In this document: positions 50,245 to 61,774 of the stretch, one piece after another
Position numbering within the stretch: the stretch's first letter is position 1
How the letters are laid out: each line of letters begins with the position of its first letter
Source of the DNA: Chromobacterium haemolyticum DSM 19808
GTDB taxonomy: Bacteria; Pseudomonadota; Gammaproteobacteria; Burkholderiales; Chromobacteriaceae
Direction: 5' to 3'
NCBI RefSeq assembly: GCF_000711885.1
Contig: NZ_KL543997.1
Location: 21,438 to 85,437, forward strand
Length of the DNA stretch: 64,000 nt
Notes under the pieces: model-generated
Databases searched by the model: none
The model's input: only the letters and a program-made list of their open reading frames with translations
What the model was told of the DNA's origin: nothing
Made by a program: the position numbers and the translations under genes

Positions 50245-51075
50245 TCAACGTGGCCGGTCGCCCAGTATGGTGGCGCGGTGCATCACTCGCCGCTGCGGCA
50301 GGTAATCCGCCACCGCGTAATGCTGGGTGACGCGGTTGTCCCAGAACGCCAGGTCGTTTTCCTTCCAGCGCCAGCGCACGGTGAATTCCGGCCGCGCGGC
50401 ATGGGCGAACAGCAGGGCCAGCAAGGCCTCGCTCTCACGCGGCGCCAGCTCCAGAATCCGAGTGGTGAAGCCCTCGTTGACGAACAAGCCCTTGCGGCCG
50501 GTGACGGGATGGGTCCGCACCACCGGATGCACTACTGGCGGATGATCACGGCTGGCCTGTTGCCAGCGCGCGTATTGCGGCGTGTCCTTAAAACGGCTTT
50601 CCGGGAAAGAGTGGATAAAGCTGTGTTCGGCGCTGAGGCCGTCAAGCAATGTGCGCAAGGCCGGCGACAAGGCCTCGTAAGCGGCGCTGTTGCTGCTCCA
50701 CAGCGTGTCGCCGCCCACGTCCGGCAGCTGCCGCGCCGACAGCACCGCGCCCAACGGCGGGGTGGTGATGAAGGTAACGTCGGTGTGCCAATTGTCGTTG
50801 TCCGGCAAGTTGTCGACGTGGGTGTCCAGCACAATGATTTCCGGCTGCTCCGCCACCGTTGGGTAGACCGGATGCAGATGCAGATCGCCGAAGCGGGCGG
50901 CGAAGTCACGCTGCTGGCGCGGCGTCAGCGGCTGGTTCTCGAAGAACAGCACCTGGTGACGCAGCAGCGCGGCTTCAATCGCGTCGCGCTCGGCGTCTGA
51001 CAGCGGCGCGCTCAAGTCCACGCCGGAGACAATGGCCCCCAGGGCCGGACTAAGGGCTTGCAGTTGCAGGCTCAT
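50245..51075 (-). CDS. tauD: Taurine dioxygenase TauD
   Basis: A 276-residue Fe(II)/2-oxoglutarate dioxygenase that oxidises taurine to release sulfite. The iron ligands His97 and Asp99 are in DNWHTDVTF; the distal His is in [11 protein letters not shown], followed by the 2-oxoglutarate-binding Arg in [10 protein letters not shown]-terminal [17 protein letters not shown] is typical of TauD. It is the last gene of tauABCD, 57 bases after tauC, followed by an intrinsic terminator. Close sulfonate or alkylsulfate dioxygenases exist, but the tau context decides the name. Confidence 0.93.
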
Positions 51076-51132
51076 GAATGTGTGCTCCCTATCCGCGCGG
51101 CGGATTCAATACCAAGAAAAACGAAAATCAGA

Positions 51133-51996
51133 TCAGAAACGCTCAGGCGCGGCCCAGCCGGCGAAACGCCGTTCCACCCAACGCAGCCCCAGCTCCAGCG
51201 CCAACGCAATCCAGGCGATGATCAGGATGCCGGCGATCACCGCGTCGGTGACCAGGAACTGGGCGGCGGACTGCACCATGAAACCCAGGCCGCGGGTGGC
51301 GGCCACCAGCTCCGCCGCCACCAGCGTGGACCAGCCCACGCCCAACCCGATGCGCAGCCCGGTCAGGATGTCCGGCAACGCGCTGGGCAGCACCACCAGC
51401 CGCAGCAGCTGACCACGGCTGGCGCCCAGCGAGCGCGCGGCCTGCAGCCGCGCCGGGTCCGCTCGGCGCACGCCGGCGGCGGTGGCGATAGCCAGCGGCG
51501 CGAAGATGGCGAGATAAATCAGCAGCACTTTGCTGACCTCGCCGATGCCGAACCAGATCACGATCAAGGGCAGATAAGCCAAGGGCGGCACCGGCCGATA
51601 AAACTCGATCAATGGATCCAGCGCCGCATGCGCGCGCCGGCTCAGGCCCATCAACATGCCCAGCGGCACCGCGGTGGCCGCGGCCAGCAATAGCGCCAGG
51701 CCCACCCGGCCCAGGCTGGCGGCGGCGTGACGCCACAGGCTGGCGTCCATGAAGCCGTTGACCGCCAGATCCGCTAGCCTCGTCGCCACCTGAGCAGGGC
51801 CGGGCAGAAATAGCGGCGACACCAGCCCGCCGGCGCTGGCCGCCCACCACAACAACAGCAGGCCGCCCACCGACAGCGCGCTGGGCCAGCGCCGGCGCCA
51901 GGCGGCGCGGCCAGGGACGGGAGGATGTGCTGGCGGCGGCGCGCTTAGCTCGGCTTGCGCGGCCGGGCCCAATTCAGTCAGTTCAAGCGGCGGCAT
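51133..51996 (-). CDS. tauC: Taurine ABC transporter permease TauC
   Basis: A 287-residue inner-membrane permease with about six helices and the EAA-type cytosolic loop ([21 protein letters not shown], the conserved G followed by LP.ALP). The N-terminal ~45 residues form a Pro/Ala-rich extension before the first helix. It forms the translocation pore with the TauB ATPase. The start overlaps the tauB 3' end by 14 bases. Confidence 0.92.
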
Positions 51997-52777
51997 GGTC
52001 GGCCTCCTCCGCGCGGAAAATCCAGTCCAGCAAATGCTCGCGCATGGCGATGAAGGCGGGATCGGCCTTGATCGAGCGCGCCGATTCGCCGGCGGCGTAG
52101 CGATGGGCGAAACCCAGCTTCTGCCGCAGCGCGATACGGCCGGGGCGCGGTGTCAGCACCAAAAGCTCGGTGCCGAGGAACAACGCTTCCTCAATGCTGT
52201 GGGTAATCAGGAAAATGCCCTTGCCGCTGCGCTGCCACAGGCTGAGGATCAACGACTGCATCTTTTCCCGGGTCAACGCGTCCAGCGCGCCCAGCGGCTC
52301 GTCCAGCAGCAGGAAATCGGGATCGGCCGCCAACGCGCGCGCCAGACCCAGACGCTGGCGCATGCCGCCGGACATCTGGCTGAGCGCGTGGCCGGCGAAA
52401 GCCTCCAGCCCCACCCAGCCCAACATGCGGCGCGCCTCGAGCCGCCGCTGCTCGCGCGGCACCCCGCGCAGGCGCAGGCCGAAAGCCACATTGTCTTCGG
52501 CGTTGAGCCAGGGCATCAGCGCGTCGTCCTGGAACACCACGCCGCGATCCGCGCCCGGCCCGCGCACGGGGCGGCCGTTGGCCAGCACCCGGCCCTGGCT
52601 GGGCGCCTGGAAACCAGCCATCAGCCCCAGCAAAGTGGACTTGCCGCAGCCGGACGGCCCCAAGGCCACCACGATTTCGCCGGAGTGCAGCTCCAGCGAC
52701 ACCCGGTCCAAGGCTTGCACAGGACCGGACGGGCCGGCGTAGCTGACGCCGGCGTTTTCCACGATCAAGCTCGCCAT
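51983..52777 (-). CDS. tauB: Taurine ABC transporter ATP-binding protein TauB
   Basis: A 264-residue ABC ATPase: Walker [14 protein letters not shown]-loop [10 protein letters not shown], signature [15 protein letters not shown], Walker [13 protein letters not shown] and H-loop [10 protein letters not shown]. The ATG at 52777 follows GAGGAGG; the longer frame starts inside the preceding region. It powers taurine uptake together with TauA and TauC. Confidence 0.94.
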
Positions 52778-52793
52778 CGCGGCCTCCTCGCGC

Positions 52794-53798
52794 TCAGCGC
52801 GTCTGCGCCAGCCGCACGAAGCGCGGCTCGACATAGGCTTGATAATCCGGCAGCACCGTTTCCACCTTCTTCTGTTCCTTCAAGAACAAGGCGGTGTCGC
52901 GCAGCGCCTTGGCGGTGCCGCCGCCCAGCAAGCGCGGCGACAACTGCTCCTGCGCCAGCGGGAAGCGGCTGCCGGCCAGCAAGCCGGGAATCTGCGCCGG
53001 ATCGGCCCCGGTCAGCCGCGCGATCTTGGCCACCTGCGGCGAGCCGACGCTCCAGGCCGCCGGCTTGGCGCGGTAATCGGCGAAGGCCTGCAAAGTCACC
53101 TTGGCGAAGGCGGCCAGCGCCTGCGGCTGAGCGGCGGCGAAGTCCTTGCGCGCCACCCAGGCTTCGAAGGTGGGCGCGCCCCATTGCCCCACTTGTTCGG
53201 AATTAACCAGCACCGAGCCGGTTTTCAGCGTCTGGCTCAGCGCCGGGTCCCAGACATAGGCGGCGTCGATGTCGCCGCGCTGCCAGGCGGCGCTGATCTC
53301 GGACGGGCGCAGATTGATGATGGACAGCTTGGCCGGGTCCAGCTTCCAGTGCTTGAGCGCGGCCAGCAGGCTGTAATGGGTGGTGGAGACATAGGGCACC
53401 GCCACCTTTTTGCCGATCAGGTCCTGCGGGGTCTTGATGCCGCTGCCCTTGCGCGCCACCAACGCCTCGGAGTTGCCGATCTCGGCGACGATCAGAAAGG
53501 TCTGGATCGGCAGTTGGCGGGTGGCGGCGGCGCTGAGCGGGCTGGAGCCCAGATCGGCGATATGCACGTCGCCGGAAGCCAGCGCGGCGAGCACTTCCGC
53601 GCCGCTCTCGAACTTGCGCCACTGCAGCGGCCGGCCGATGGCTTTTTCGTACAGGCCGTCGGCCTGGGCCACCTTGGATGGATCGACTCCGGTCTGATAA
53701 CCGATGACGATGGGCGCCTCGGCGGCGTTTGCCGCCAAGGCAGCGAGAGAGAGGCTGGCGAGGCTGAGCGCCAGCAGGGAACGGCGGGATATGGACAT
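52794..53798 (-). CDS. tauA: Taurine ABC transporter substrate-binding protein TauA
   Basis: A 334-residue periplasmic binding protein with a signal peptide ([20 protein letters not shown]). The mature part starts [19 protein letters not shown], has [44 protein letters not shown] and [15 protein letters not shown], all typical of TauA-type sulfonate binding. It is the first gene of tauABCD. Its 5' leader contains repeat copy 7, 12 bases upstream of the start, between the gene and the AT-rich promoter zone. Confidence 0.93.
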
Positions 53799-56672: not shown

Positions 56673-56908
56673 GTCCGCTCGCTCCTGAATTTGGCAGGGA
56701 GCGTAGCAAAGCAACATACAAATGTCATTTCATGCCAGAACAAAACCCAGCGGTTTCAAGCATTGAGCACCCGCAATGAAGCGATAAAACACTCAAATCC
56801 CCCCCCGCTCAGCATTTGCCAGCTTTCTCCGCTTTCGGCTCGCCTATAAAACAATGTCATGCAAATAAAATGGCCGCCCCCACCGCGGCCGCACAAGGAG
56901 AAAACGCT
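56673..56908. promoter_or_regulatory. Divergent region between glucoamylase and the oxidase/VioB-like cluster
   Basis: These 236 bases must hold promoters for both directions. TATAAA at 56845-56850 lies about 60 bases before the oxidase gene and could be its -10; no well-spaced -35 is seen. An in-frame upstream ATG at 56816 exists, but the ATG at 56909 has the ribosome binding site (AAGGAG at 56895-56900). Confidence 0.3.
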
Positions 56909-58513
56909 ATGGGCTTGAATGCCATCACCCCGGACGACCACCGTTACGAAACGCTGAAAAAAGGCTTCAATCTTCGCTGGCCGGCTGCCGGCCAGGCCGC
57001 GGGCGGCATCATCATCTGCAGCGATGAAGCCGAAGTCGTCGCCGCGCTGCAATACGCGCTGGACCACAAGCTCAAGCCCACTATCCGCAGCGGCGGCCAT
57101 TGCTACGAGGGCTTCGTCAGCAACAACCCCGGCGGCCTGATCATAGACATCGGCCAGCTCTCCGGCCTACGCCGCGACGTAGCCGCGGACGGCAGGCGTT
57201 ATGGCTTCCAGCTTTTGGCCGGCAATCAGAACTGGGATGGCTACGTAGGCCTGTACAAACTCACCGGCAAGACCATGCCCGGCGGCTCTTGCTATTCAGT
57301 GGGCGCCGGCGGCCACATTAGCGGCGGCGGCTACGGCCTGCTATCGCGGCTGCAGGGCCTGACCGTGGACTGGTTGAGCGCAGTGGACATTCTGCTGGCG
57401 GACGGCGGCAAGGCGCGCAAGGTACACGCCCGCGTCGACAATCAATTCGCCGACTTGCTCAAGCTGTGCAAGGGGGCCGGCGGCGGCAATGTGGGCCTGA
57501 TCACCAGCTATTACTTTGACGATTTGCCGCCGGCGCCGCAGCAGGTGGGCGTGCAGCTCCTGCAATTCAGCTGGGACGATTTCAAGGACTTGGGCCGCTT
57601 CAGCGACTTGCTGCAAACCTATGGCCAATATTGGCAGGAGGCGGACAGCGAGCCCGAAGGCTACGGCCTGTTCAGCCTGCTCAAGCTCACCCACATCAGC
57701 GCCAAAAACCTGGGCCTGGTGGTGCAATACACCGACAGGGACGGCAAGCTGAATCACACCGCGCCGTTCAACGATTTCTACCGGCGCATCAAGCAAGTGG
57801 CCCAGCCGCAACTGCTCAACACCTATCTGCCCGGCGGCGGCCATCTGCCCCACATTCCGCACCGCTCACCGCCAAAAAACACCGGCTCCTTGCCTGAGCA
57901 CACACAGGCGATGGACTGGCTGTACGCCACCCAAACGTTGAACGGCTCAGGCAGCAATCAGCGCGGCAAGTACAAGTCCGCCTATATGAAGCGGAACTTC
58001 AGCCCAGCGGAGTGCAAGGCCATCCACCAGCACCTTAGCTCCGATCCCGACAACCAGGATCTGGCCCAATCGCTGCTACAGGTGGACTCCTACGGCGGCG
58101 CGATCAACCACCGCAGCCCCGGCAACAACGGTTTCGACCCGGCCGACAACCAGACCGCGGTGCCTCAGCGCGCCTCGGTAATGAAGCTGCAGTACCAAAG
58201 CTACTGGACCGACCCGGCCAACGACGCCATGCACGTGAGCTGGATGCGGGCGTTTTTCGACGCCGTCTACGCCGCCGACGGCTTCAACGGCACGCCGTAT
58301 CCAAGTTCGGCGGCCTTGCCGGATTCGCCTTACGAGGGCTGCTACATCAACTACCCGGATGTGGACATGTTGAACGGCGCGCGGCCGGGAACCCCTGGCT
58401 ACAGCTGGGGCGAGTTGTATTACGGCGCGCTGTATCCGGAGCTGGTGGCGATCAAGCGCAAGTACGACCCGGGCAATGTGTTCAACCACGCGATGTCGCT
58501 GGGCGCGGAGTAG
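56909..58513 (+). CDS. Berberine-bridge-type FAD-linked oxidase (bicovalent flavin)
   Basis: A 534-residue flavoprotein of the FAD_binding_4/BBE family. The FAD is expected to be bound twice: His64 in TIRSGGHCYEG (8-alpha-histidyl) and Cys128 in GGSCYSVGAGGHISGGG (6-S-cysteinyl). The C-terminal BBE motif is YYGALYPELVAIKRKYDPGNVF. Such enzymes oxidise alcohols, sugars or alkaloid-like C-N and C-C bonds, making hydrogen peroxide. No signal peptide is seen. It is the first of three genes with VioB-related partners; it may prepare the substrate of the ferritin-like protein. The substrate is unknown. Confidence 0.88.
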   Translation: MGLNAITPDDHRYETLKKGFNLRWPAAGQAAGGIIICSDEAEVVAALQYALDHKLKPTIRSGGHCYEGFVSNNPGGLIIDIGQLSGLRRDVAADGRRYGFQLLAGNQNWDGYVGLYKLTGKTMPGGSCYSVGAGGHISGGGYGLLSRLQGLTVDWLSAVDILLADGGKARKVHARVDNQFADLLKLCKGAGGGNVGLITSYYFDDLPPAPQQVGVQLLQFSWDDFKDLGRFSDLLQTYGQYWQEADSEPEGYGLFSLLKLTHISAKNLGLVVQYTDRDGKLNHTAPFNDFYRRIKQVAQPQLLNTYLPGGGHLPHIPHRSPPKNTGSLPEHTQAMDWLYATQTLNGSGSNQRGKYKSAYMKRNFSPAECKAIHQHLSSDPDNQDLAQSLLQVDSYGGAINHRSPGNNGFDPADNQTAVPQRASVMKLQYQSYWTDPANDAMHVSWMRAFFDAVYAADGFNGTPYPSSAALPDSPYEGCYINYPDVDMLNGARPGTPGYSWGELYYGALYPELVAIKRKYDPGNVFNHAMSLGAE

Positions 58514-58686
58514 AGCGCCCAACTCCGGCCGGGGCTCGCAAAGCACCGGCCACACCGCTCCCGGCATTCACCTGTCCTAAAGAACATTGCCCTTATGGTC
58601 AGCGCTGCCTATACCCGCGCTATGCCTATGGGATTAAATCGTCAGCCATAGCCGTCCGCGGATTTTCCGGCCAGCAAGGAGCCAAT

Positions 58687-60642
58687 ATGAGCTATCTGCA
58701 GTTTCCCCGCCTGGCCTTTTCCGGCCAGTTCCAGTCAGATGTCTCCACCGTCAACAACGACCCGCGCCACTACGACAATGCCACCTTCGAACCGCGTTTC
58801 CAGGAATACCAACAAGCGGGAGCGGACGGGCGCACCAAAACCTATAACGGCTGGTGGCACCCCACCGGCACCGCCATCATGCGCTTCGCCAACTGCCAAG
58901 TGACCAGCTTGCGCGGGCCCAGCGGCATCCTGGTCACCAATCCGGCGCAAGACCCGCTGCTGTCCTGTAGCGTGAGCAACGCCATCGGCAAACCGTCCGG
59001 CAAGATGGTGGACCTGGACCCGGACTGGCAGCTGGCCTCCAGCATCTACGGCCTCGCGGTGTCGCTGCTCAAGCCGGACGGCACGCCGCTGATGACCGCC
59101 GACTATCAGAGCAACCCCTTCCGCGATCTGTGGTTTTCCCGCGCCCAAAGCCAGGGCGACAGCGCCGCCTCCGCCGTCTTTCAATCCGTGCTCACCAATA
59201 TCCAGTGGCATCTGGACGGTTTCGACAGCCCGCTGCTGGCGCGCCTGATCGAGTTGAGCGAACAGGACCGGCTCTCCATCCGGCTGTCCACCTACGGCTA
59301 CAGCACCGACTACAGCGATCCCGGCTTCGGTTACGGCACCGTGCTCGGCGCCATCGGTCCGGCCTATCTGGGCCAGCCGCGCTCCTTCATCCTGGGCCGC
59401 CGCTTCATGCCGACCACGCAGCAGGGCAACGACCTTGCCAGCAAGAACGGCATCGGCTGTTTCTCCTCCTGGCTGGATCAGGACACCGCCAGCCTGCAAG
59501 TGGACCTGAGCAACGCGTTGCCCCTGGACAGCCGCTTCCAGGTGGCGGCGCTGCCGTCGCTGCAATACGCCGTCCTGCACAATGAATGGACGGCGCAGGA
59601 CGCGGAGATAGGGCCTGACGACTACACCGTCATCGCCGGCGTGGACACCTCGCAAGCGCTGCAAGACCAGCAGGCCGGCATCCAATCGGTGCCGCTGACC
59701 GAGGAACAGTTGCGGCTGGCCAATCAGCCCTTGCCGCTGGCCATCGTGCAGCCGGTGGGCGTGGAGGGACGCGCCGTGGTCTGCGTGCGCGAGGCCTTGC
59801 TGGGCAACGAGGTGCGCGCTGAAGACTTCGCCATCCGCCTGGACCCCAACCATCCGGACCGAAACCACCAGCACACCCACGTTTACGCGGCGCGTTACGG
59901 TCAGCCGCTGGCCGGCGCGGCGCTGGCTTTCTGGGCCGGCGCGCCCATGCTGGACTACGGCGACACCCCCACCGACAAAACCCAGGGCACCACCCCGCGC
60001 GCGCTGTTGCCGGTCAACAACGTGCCCAACGCCGCCATCCGCATCAGCCCGGCGGAGCCGATCACCGACCAGGCCGGCCGGGCCGCCGTCACCCTGCACG
60101 GGCCGGAAAGCTTCGGCACCCCGCGCGAATACATGGACGGCCAGCTGTTCACCATCGCCTACAATCTGGCGGGCTCCGATCCGGCGCTGCAACAGCCCTT
60201 CGACAACTTCGCGGTGGTGGTTTTCAGCAGCTTCCCGCAGCCGGGCCAGGACATAGACCTGGACAATCCGCGCTGGGAAGACGTGCAGCCCATCCTGCAG
60301 CAATACGCCAACCTCTACCCGGTGATGAGCCAGGGCCTGTTCGACTTTTCCAAGCAAGCGGCAGCCGACGCCAGCGCCTTCATCATGCGCTTCGTTTTCG
60401 ACAAGCCCATCGAGGACCCGGACCAGATGCCGGTGACGCGCGATCTGTCCGCCAGCAAGCGGCGCATGCTGATCAACTACTTCCAGAACGTCATAGACCT
60501 CACCGGCAAAACCTTCGACCGCCAGCGGATGTACGGCAAGCGCTGCCCGCTGCGCCAGAGCGCGCCGCCCAGCGAGGCCGATATCGCCGCCACTCGCGGC
60601 TCTCTCAGCACAAGCAAGAGCCGCAAAGGCAACGACGCCTGA
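58687..60642 (+). CDS. VioB N-terminal-half-like protein
   Basis: A 651-residue protein resembling the N-terminal two thirds of VioB (violacein synthesis) from memory. It starts MSYLQFPRLAFSGQFQSD, with TVNNDPRHYDN, matching the VioB opening (MS-L-FPR--F-G, T-N-DP). Near the end YANLYPVMSQGLFDFSK and MPVTRDLSASKRRMLINYF (about 533-600) match the VioB segment before its ferritin-like part. Here the protein stops, and the ferritin-like half is a separate gene 37 bases on. AAGGAG precedes the ATG. It has no signal peptide. Role inferred: structural or catalytic partner of the next protein. Confidence 0.72.
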   Translation: MSYLQFPRLAFSGQFQSDVSTVNNDPRHYDNATFEPRFQEYQQAGADGRTKTYNGWWHPTGTAIMRFANCQVTSLRGPSGILVTNPAQDPLLSCSVSNAIGKPSGKMVDLDPDWQLASSIYGLAVSLLKPDGTPLMTADYQSNPFRDLWFSRAQSQGDSAASAVFQSVLTNIQWHLDGFDSPLLARLIELSEQDRLSIRLSTYGYSTDYSDPGFGYGTVLGAIGPAYLGQPRSFILGRRFMPTTQQGNDLASKNGIGCFSSWLDQDTASLQVDLSNALPLDSRFQVAALPSLQYAVLHNEWTAQDAEIGPDDYTVIAGVDTSQALQDQQAGIQSVPLTEEQLRLANQPLPLAIVQPVGVEGRAVVCVREALLGNEVRAEDFAIRLDPNHPDRNHQHTHVYAARYGQPLAGAALAFWAGAPMLDYGDTPTDKTQGTTPRALLPVNNVPNAAIRISPAEPITDQAGRAAVTLHGPESFGTPREYMDGQLFTIAYNLAGSDPALQQPFDNFAVVVFSSFPQPGQDIDLDNPRWEDVQPILQQYANLYPVMSQGLFDFSKQAAADASAFIMRFVFDKPIEDPDQMPVTRDLSASKRRMLINYFQNVIDLTGKTFDRQRMYGKRCPLRQSAPPSEADIAATRGSLSTSKSRKGNDA

Positions 60643-60679
60643 CCGTCCAACCGGCATCCCTTTCCAAGGAAACCAAGCC

Positions 60680-61774
60680 ATGCTGAAGATACGCCAAGAA
60701 CTGATGGACGAACTGCGTCAGGCCGACCACATCCAACATGTGCGGACCATGCTGGCCGGCGCGGTGCGGCTGGAGCTGTCCACCATCCCCACTTATCTGA
60801 CCGCGCTGTTCTCCATCAAGCCCGGCCAGAATCAGGAAGCGCGCGCGCTGGTGCAATCGGTGGTGGTGGAAGAAATGCTGCACATGACCCTGGCCGCCAA
60901 TACCTTGATCGCCATCGGCGGCAACCCACGCATCGTTGAAGACGGCCTGGCGCTCAATTACCCTGGGCCACTGCCGATGTGCGTGGATACCGGCCTCATC
61001 GTCACCCTCAAGGCCTTGAGCCGGCAGCAGGCGCAGGAAGTGTTCATGGAGATAGAACGTCCGGACACCCAGGCCATCCTGCCCGGCGAAACCCAGGCCT
61101 ATGTCGACAACCAGTCCGGCTTCGACTCCATAGGCCGCTTTTACCAGGCCATTCTGGAGCGGCTGCAACACCTGGAAAACCATGGCCACGACTGCTTCGC
61201 CCAACCGCGGCTGGACGAACAGGTGGACGTCAGCCAGTGGTTCCCGCACGAGGTGCCGGACTGTCCGGACGGCAAGGTCTACGACATGGCCAGCGCCCGG
61301 GCGGTGATAGACACCATCGTGCGCCAGGGCGAAGGCGTGCTGGAGGAGGACTGGATCAACCCCAAAGACGAGGCCGGCGGCGGCTACGCTCACTATTTCA
61401 AGTTTGGCGAAATCTACTACGGCAAACGGCTGATCCGGGACTATTCCAGCCCCTCCGGCTGGTCCTACACCGGGGAGCCGGTGCCGCTGGACGAAACCGG
61501 GGTGTTCAACCTGCTGCCCAACGCCGCGCTCTCAGACTACCCGGCGGGCAGCGGCGCGGCCGTCAGCGGCGCCCAGTTCTACCAGGCCTACCAAAACCTG
61601 CTGGCCGCGCTGGACCGCACCTTCAACGGCGAGCCGCGGCACTTGGACGCCGCCATCGGCATCATGTACGAGCTGAAGCTGGTGGCGCAGAAGGTGATGC
61701 AGCACCCGGTCAACAGCAGCGTGCCGGACGTGGTGGCCGCGCCGCCGTTCATGCGCCTGCATCAGTCGAGCTGA
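60680..61774 (+). CDS. Ferritin-like protein, VioB C-terminal-half-like (iminophenyl-pyruvate dimer synthase type)
   Basis: A 364-residue ferritin-fold protein (PF12902-like). Metal ligands are visible: Glu32 in RLELSTIPTYL, Glu64/Glu65 and His68 in VVVEEMLHMTLAANTL, and the second-half GEGVLEEDW and GGYAHYFKFGEIYYG. GGNPRIVEDGLALNYPGPLPM is a family hallmark. In VioB, RebD and StaD this type of domain couples two imino acid units. With the preceding protein the pair totals 1015 residues, near the size of one VioB. Its 3' end overlaps the convergent histidine-kinase gene by 26 bases. Confidence 0.82.
   Translation: MLKIRQELMDELRQADHIQHVRTMLAGAVRLELSTIPTYLTALFSIKPGQNQEARALVQSVVVEEMLHMTLAANTLIAIGGNPRIVEDGLALNYPGPLPMCVDTGLIVTLKALSRQQAQEVFMEIERPDTQAILPGETQAYVDNQSGFDSIGRFYQAILERLQHLENHGHDCFAQPRLDEQVDVSQWFPHEVPDCPDGKVYDMASARAVIDTIVRQGEGVLEEDWINPKDEAGGGYAHYFKFGEIYYGKRLIRDYSSPSGWSYTGEPVPLDETGVFNLLPNAALSDYPAGSGAAVSGAQFYQAYQNLLAALDRTFNGEPRHLDAAIGIMYELKLVAQKVMQHPVNSSVPDVVAAPPFMRLHQSS

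Follow-up and report, generated by a model that had tools for sequence, protein, structure and literature searches.

The 64,000-nt window of contig NZ_KL543997.1 from Chromobacterium haemolyticum DSM 19808, the whole stretch of DNA analysed here, contains at positions 56909..61774 three consecutive open reading frames (ORFs) that encode a flavoprotein oxidase and two proteins, here called P2 and P3, which correspond to the N- and C-terminal parts of VioB. The reading that is favoured, with moderate confidence, is that P2 and P3 are the subunits of a single metalloenzyme related to VioB, RebD and StaD that makes a small metabolite, often exported by the Ebo system, and that the adjoining flavoprotein is a separate sugar oxidase. 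VioB-type enzymes begin the violacein and indolocarbazole pathways, which is where the interest in such a pair lies. VioB is reported to couple a pair of imine molecules that VioA supplies (PMC9705886, PMC10851217); heme b and a catalase activity are recorded for VioB, and the same source, a 2021 review, describes its catalytic properties as largely unknown and its structure as not available (PMC9705886). An earlier note on this DNA had drawn the three genes together into a compact two-step coupling pathway, and although its three same-strand genes were confirmed as ORFs at their coordinates, along with both parts of the likeness to VioB, the pathway itself is probably mistaken in its first step.

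The likeness of P2 to the N-terminal part of VioB is confirmed by a family profile search that goes well beyond the one unrelated control. In this comparison, made with hhalign, a profile of 23 P2 sequences aligns residues 2-604 of P2 with residues 1-578 of VioB (probability 98.4, E 5.7e-15), against E 0.61 for the single unrelated control of 883 amino acids (aa). The protein starts with the motif MSYL..PR..F.G.F and ends with PI..QY.NLYP...DP..MPVTRDLS. Pfam recognises no family in P2 or in any of the 23 family members (0/23), and PDB sequence searches returned nothing convincing, with a best E of 0.081 for P2 and of 0.49 for the family profile. The NCBIfam model of VioB (TIGR04492) matches P2 at 22.2 bits, over residues 536-603 only, and is matched weakly by 16/23 of the family; set against the curated cut-off of 1250 bits, P2 is therefore not VioB. 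Among named species genomes the best relative of P2 is found in C. alkanivorans (95%), records very near the window's own having possibly been excluded.

P3 is the ferritin-fold protein that had been matched to the C-terminal part of VioB, and this match is upheld at the family level, with P3 assigned to PF12902 at E 6.9e-54 and residues 603-825 of VioB to the same family at E 1.1e-32. The link between the two proteins rests on this family profile because a direct BLASTP comparison is weak (E 0.003, a single comparison). P3 has no match to TIGR04492, and its only useful structural link is to the solved chain 3hl1 (E 4.6e-11). Six residues, Glu32, Glu65, His68, Glu126, Glu218 and His238, are identical in 24/24 split-family rows aligned, representing 24 of the 30 loci described below, and also in the three VioB rows used (G024, L091, L095). 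Given the ferritin-like family, these are putative metal ligands. The same six candidates are present in a PF12902 protein that stands alone, with no P2 to partner it, and is encoded on contig C13 of the same genome (L014 8083-9144), where the neighbouring genes, judged from their sequences, resemble ilvB/ilvH and psd.

What, then, is the relationship of the pair to VioB? Both consist of ~580-600 N-terminal residues followed by a PF12902 part, which has the same Glu and His residues in the three VioB rows checked, but in VioB these form one chain whereas P2 and P3 are the products of two genes (of VioB, RebD and StaD, VioB was the one compared). A further difference is that no VioA-like partner of the pair was found, its neighbour being a BBE/VAO-type enzyme that resembles NagOx. 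In a tree, the 30 split-family rows are separated from the three VioB rows by a long, fully supported branch; the rows were trimmed at tblastn ends, so that some are without C-terminal residues, and several long branches are flagged. The pair belongs to a sister family of VioB that is built on the same plan. Of the 61 genomes of the window's family, 11 have true VioB, among them 6/12 of those with P2, but none was found in the five Chromobacterium genomes in which the oxidase adjoins the pair (hereafter the oxidase clade), nothing in the window's own genome having reached the cut-off. A VioA query was likewise unmatched in the own genome, G011 and G022, three of the five members of this clade; as a control, it did find a match in G026 (E 2.1e-151) and in G024, the genome from which it was taken. 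From these distributions it follows that the split pair and VioB are not simple substitutes for one another. A reading of the pair as a VioB gene that has broken in two was set aside, since the split form recurs, forms a clade of its own and is under purifying selection, with ratios of nonsynonymous to synonymous substitution rates (dN/dS) of 0.09-0.26 for P2 and P3 in the four genomes compared. A natural two-subunit form would represent a separable system in which to locate the metal or heme part and the substrate-binding part, and the oxidase-clade genomes, which have two split pairs each, are convenient hosts for such work.

The pair was read in 30 loci from three phyla, 21 in Chromobacterium and nine elsewhere, namely in Gloeothece (Cyanobacteria), Aureibacter (Bacteroidota), Mycetohabitans, G985 (same order), three Azospirillum loci (two of them orthologous), G427 and G174 (same class). 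The count of 21 leaves out the VioB frame of G024 and two weak rows (G015 C67 and G000 C8). P2 occurs in eight plasmid records, of which six were read, all but Mycetohabitans H4 and H5. P2 and P3 are adjacent in 29/30 of these loci. In the remaining locus, on a 6.5-kb contig of genome G174, they are fused into a single ORF of 1016 aa (L068 2633-5683), and this natural fusion supports a joint function. The distance matrices of the two proteins are closely correlated (r 0.967 over 435 pairs, with 0/2000 permutations as high), a value to which shared descent contributes. Within the window's family P2 is confined to one genus (12/61 genomes), and the window genome itself holds a second pair, on contig C24, with 32% (P2) and 39% (P3) identity to the window pair. 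Neither the split pair nor its ebo link was found described in a literature search, the key papers on the EDB cluster being outside its reach.

The main clue to the fate of the product comes from the neighbouring genes. Homologues of ebo genes adjoin the pair in 16/30 loci, comprising 12/21 in Chromobacterium and four of the nine elsewhere (Gloeothece, Aureibacter, Mycetohabitans and G985); the other Chromobacterium loci lie beside the oxidase (5) or beside neither (4). The C24 pair of the window genome, for instance, is followed immediately downstream by six ebo homologues (L013 10185-15998), the last of which is cut by the locus end, and at the Gloeothece locus only the TatD-like and dehydroquinate-synthase-like ebo genes were seen. 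The G174 contig has no adjoining ebo genes and is too short to tell. The ebo cluster (eboA-F) is described as transporting a scytonemin precursor to the periplasm (PMC6282210), and the EDB cluster of Pseudomonas fluorescens NZI7, which includes a full ebo cluster (PMC6282210), makes indoles from tryptophan (PMC9655573). A term search found no mention of ferritin in the accessible text of PMC5133447, PMC6282210 and PMC9235831. The recurrence of ebo neighbours suggests that the product of the pair, or a precursor of it, reaches the periplasm, and this recurrence in three phyla provides a testable guess at an Ebo cargo outside the scytonemin producers. A second recurrent neighbour is a protein of ~350 aa that adjoins the pair in 8/30 loci (five in Chromobacterium, and one each in Gloeothece, Azospirillum and G427). 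It is 47-67% identical outside Chromobacterium, has no Pfam, NCBIfam or PDB match and, to judge from its start, is probably exported. The paralogous pair on C24 and those of several other lineages thus adjoin ebo genes, whereas the window copy does not. Beyond the oxidase clade and C. subtsugae, the nearest relatives of the window copy include the ebo-linked G018, G027, G028 and G985 as well as the non-ebo G021 and G024, and with ebo-linked copies among them the window lineage may have descended from an ebo-linked one.

These observations can be brought together in a mechanism. P2 and P3 would form a complex in which a Glu/His metal site of the ferritin type resides in P3, while the large N-terminal part comes from P2. 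By analogy with VioB, this complex would oxidatively couple, or otherwise oxidise, a small reactive metabolite, perhaps an imine or enamine derived from an amino acid, by means of the metal site of P3, with or without heme. In many lineages the product or its precursor would then pass to the Ebo export system and on to the periplasm, and the oxidase may at most supply hydrogen peroxide (H2O2).

Why should the oxidase be regarded as separate from this chemistry? The protein has the Pfam domains FAD_binding_4 and BBE, and its best solved relative in a PDB sequence search is 7zzk, NagOx of Ralstonia solanacearum (E 6.2e-152), with the next-best, TamL (E 1.5e-71), far behind; 265/496 aligned positions are identical to NagOx (53%). 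The residues His64 and Cys128, put forward earlier as a pair for bicovalent attachment of flavin adenine dinucleotide (FAD), do align to His64 and Cys123 of NagOx, which hold bicovalent FAD. All of the residues checked for FAD attachment, the active site and the N-acetyl pocket (14/14, set from PMC9850908) are conserved, with Leu at pocket position 251 and with the Tyr, Gln, Asp and Ser residues that are named for the active site, but the Cys291-Cys316 disulfide of NagOx is absent, Val297 and Gly326 occupying the aligned positions. NagOx is an N-acetyl-D-hexosamine oxidase (PMC9299179, PMC9850908) whose activity was detected as H2O2 (PMC9850908) and whose role in the bacterium it comes from is described as unclear (PMC9299179). 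It is this similarity, together with the conserved residues, that makes a sugar oxidase preferable to a substitute for VioA: the protein is probably a sugar oxidase, with N-acetylhexosamines as the likely substrate, and probably not a functional equivalent of VioA. On the same grounds of identity and conserved residues an amino-acid oxidase of another fold was dropped as a candidate.

The distribution of the oxidase is also distinct from that of the pair. A relative of it at E 1e-40 or better is found in 13/61 genomes of the family, but it adjoins the pair in only 5/21 Chromobacterium loci, on the same strand and in the order oxidase-P2-P3. The P2 tree places these five in a single clade (support 92/94, or 100/100 with C. 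subtsugae included); they belong to the C. haemolyticum/C. alkanivorans group and have oxidases that are 90-93% identical to that of the window where intact. In C. haemolyticum H4137 (L010 5221-6820) the oxidase is spread over three reading frames and the pair is intact; the three frames reflect either a real disruption or a sequencing error. Four genomes have an oxidase relative and no P2 match (G012 at 66%, and G005, G007 and G008 at 44-50%, by two programs), four that bear the pair have a relative of 43-45% identity elsewhere in the genome (G018, G024, G025, G027), and one member of the oxidase clade, G014, also carries a more distant relative (43-45%) elsewhere. C. subtsugae has the pair at 71-73% identity, with no oxidase beside it and with other neighbours. 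When the co-occurrence of the three genes is followed across genomes, as the earlier note had proposed, the pair does recur together and the oxidase drops out beyond its clade; its claim that the oxidase is a first step in place of an amino-acid oxidase finds no support, given this confinement to one clade and the likeness to a characterised sugar oxidase. The DNA ahead of the pair tells a similar story, in that a block ~70-120 bp before the window P2 is conserved in four oxidase-carrying loci and recurs, ~45 bp further away from P2, in C. subtsugae, where the oxidase is missing from this place. Because this DNA is conserved with and without the oxidase, it suggests that the pair has its own promoter.

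A number of points weigh against a metabolite-making pair with an unrelated oxidase beside it. Firstly, the oxidase is kept, on the same strand, in all five clade genomes, precedes P2 by 173-193 bp in the three loci for which this was measured, and is under purifying selection (dN/dS 0.11-0.18, four genomes compared); a search of the 300-genome order sample at E 1e-80 found it in the own genome alone (1/300). Given this selection, the oxidase is probably a working gene, and a local functional tie with the pair within the oxidase clade is possible. Secondly, the pair is rare in even samples, counting the own genome, with 3/369 for the class, 2/398 for the phylum and 2/300 for the order. Among the 398 Pseudomonadota of the even sample, the pair and EboE occur together in the own genome only, and the other 397 have the pair in one genome and EboE in two. 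Thirdly, no ebo match is present at the window locus (L015, G000:C20 70000-89900, which is window 48563 to its end plus ~4.5 kb), beside the three Azospirillum loci, beside G427 or at 9/21 Chromobacterium loci. Finally, AlphaFold models made with five sequences each have a mean predicted local distance difference test score (pLDDT) of 31 for P2 and 37 for P3, and so lend no structural support to a complex, whose chemistry is drawn by analogy alone.

If the favoured reading is extended, the split pair may, more tentatively, be the biosynthetic core for a widespread class of coupled metabolites that are exported and as yet uncharacterised. Transport or completion of the product outside the cytoplasm would fall to Ebo and, in some lineages, also to the partner of ~350 residues that is probably exported; VioB, RebD and StaD would be fused, specialised offshoots of the two-subunit family; and the window copy would be a branch that parted from its ebo cluster and acquired a sugar oxidase that makes peroxide.

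Of the alternatives, one that is unlikely but deserves consideration links the two activities through peroxide, in coupling or defence, with the sugar oxidase making H2O2 and P2/P3, as a VioB-like catalase or peroxidase, using or removing it. This would sit well with the way NagOx activity was detected (PMC9850908) and with the invariance of the candidate ferritin-type ligands, but 25/30 pair loci have no adjoining oxidase, no heme ligand was identified, no search for one having been made, and the recurrent ebo and probably exported neighbours favour a metabolite over defence. Improbable, too, is a pair without any small-molecule product, in which P3 would handle iron as a ferritin-like protein and P2 would have a structural part beside it; although lone PF12902 proteins exist, such as that of contig C13 with the same six candidate ligands and the solved chain 3hl1, P2 shares homology with the N-terminal part of a biosynthetic enzyme that has been characterised, and the pair often adjoins metabolite-export genes. 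Least probable of all is the compact two-step pathway of the earlier note, in which the oxidase would make the reactive intermediate that P2 and P3 dimerise: the constant order and strand in five genomes, the purifying selection on all three genes in the genomes compared, the lack of VioB in those five and the presence among the oxidase's PDB matches of the BBE enzymes TamL, AknOx, GilR and CrmK, which take their names from natural-product pathways, speak for it, but the closest solved relative is a sugar oxidase that shares every residue checked, the H4137 oxidase is in three frames beside an intact pair, the DNA before P2 is conserved where the oxidase is missing, and the two distributions are separate, four genomes of the family having an oxidase relative without the pair.

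The features of the locus are collected in the table below. The oxidase frame is open from an upstream TTG at 56816, and the most likely start is the ATG at 56909, because AAGGAG precedes it; this element also precedes the start of P2, and P2 and P3 are spaced by 37 bp.

Coordinates of the oxidase, the split pair and associated sites (window positions unless a locus is named)
Feature	Position	Strand	Basis
BBE/VAO-type flavoprotein oxidase, NagOx-like, 534 aa, probable N-acetylhexosamine oxidase	56909..58513	+	FAD_binding_4 and BBE domains, 7zzk match
Oxidase His64 codon	57098-57100	+	
Oxidase Cys128 codon	57290-57292	+	
Oxidase-P2 gap, 173 bp	58514..58686	+	lux-box-like sites at 58572-58587 (2 mismatches) and at 58587-58602 (1 mismatch)
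P2, 651 aa, homologue of VioB N-terminal part	58687..60642	+	23-sequence family, hhalign
P3, 364 aa, PF12902 ferritin-like, homologue of VioB C-terminal part	60680..61774	+	Pfam, 3hl1
P3 putative metal-ligand codons (Glu32, Glu65, His68, Glu126, Glu218, His238)	span 60773..61393	+	alignment
Protein of ~350 aa, probably exported	L013 5712-6773 (own genome, C24); also L047, L049, L051, L052, L057, L060, L067		

Promoter and terminator scans of the locus gave results no better than shuffles. The two lux-box-like sites in the oxidase-P2 gap, which lie within the conserved block described above, resemble the CviR palindrome CTGNCCNNNNGGNCAG (PMC12114271). Both are found at equal distances before P2 in five Chromobacterium loci, every one of the five oxidase-clade loci, themselves not mutually independent, has the site with one mismatch, and sites with two mismatches lie near -100 before four ebo-linked copies. 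Sites with <=2 mismatches are present in 15/22 upstream regions and missing from 7/22, a set that includes close orthologues and five regions taken before the exported-protein gene rather than before P2. The background, from 3000 random 200-bp stretches of the loci with coding DNA included, is 2.0% for <=1 mismatch and 20.8% for <=2. Control of the pair through a lux box is a lead only.

Upstream of the locus, window 50245-53798 contains what look like genes for a TauD-like dioxygenase, a permease, an ATPase and a binding protein, a set resembling those for taurine or sulfonate uptake.

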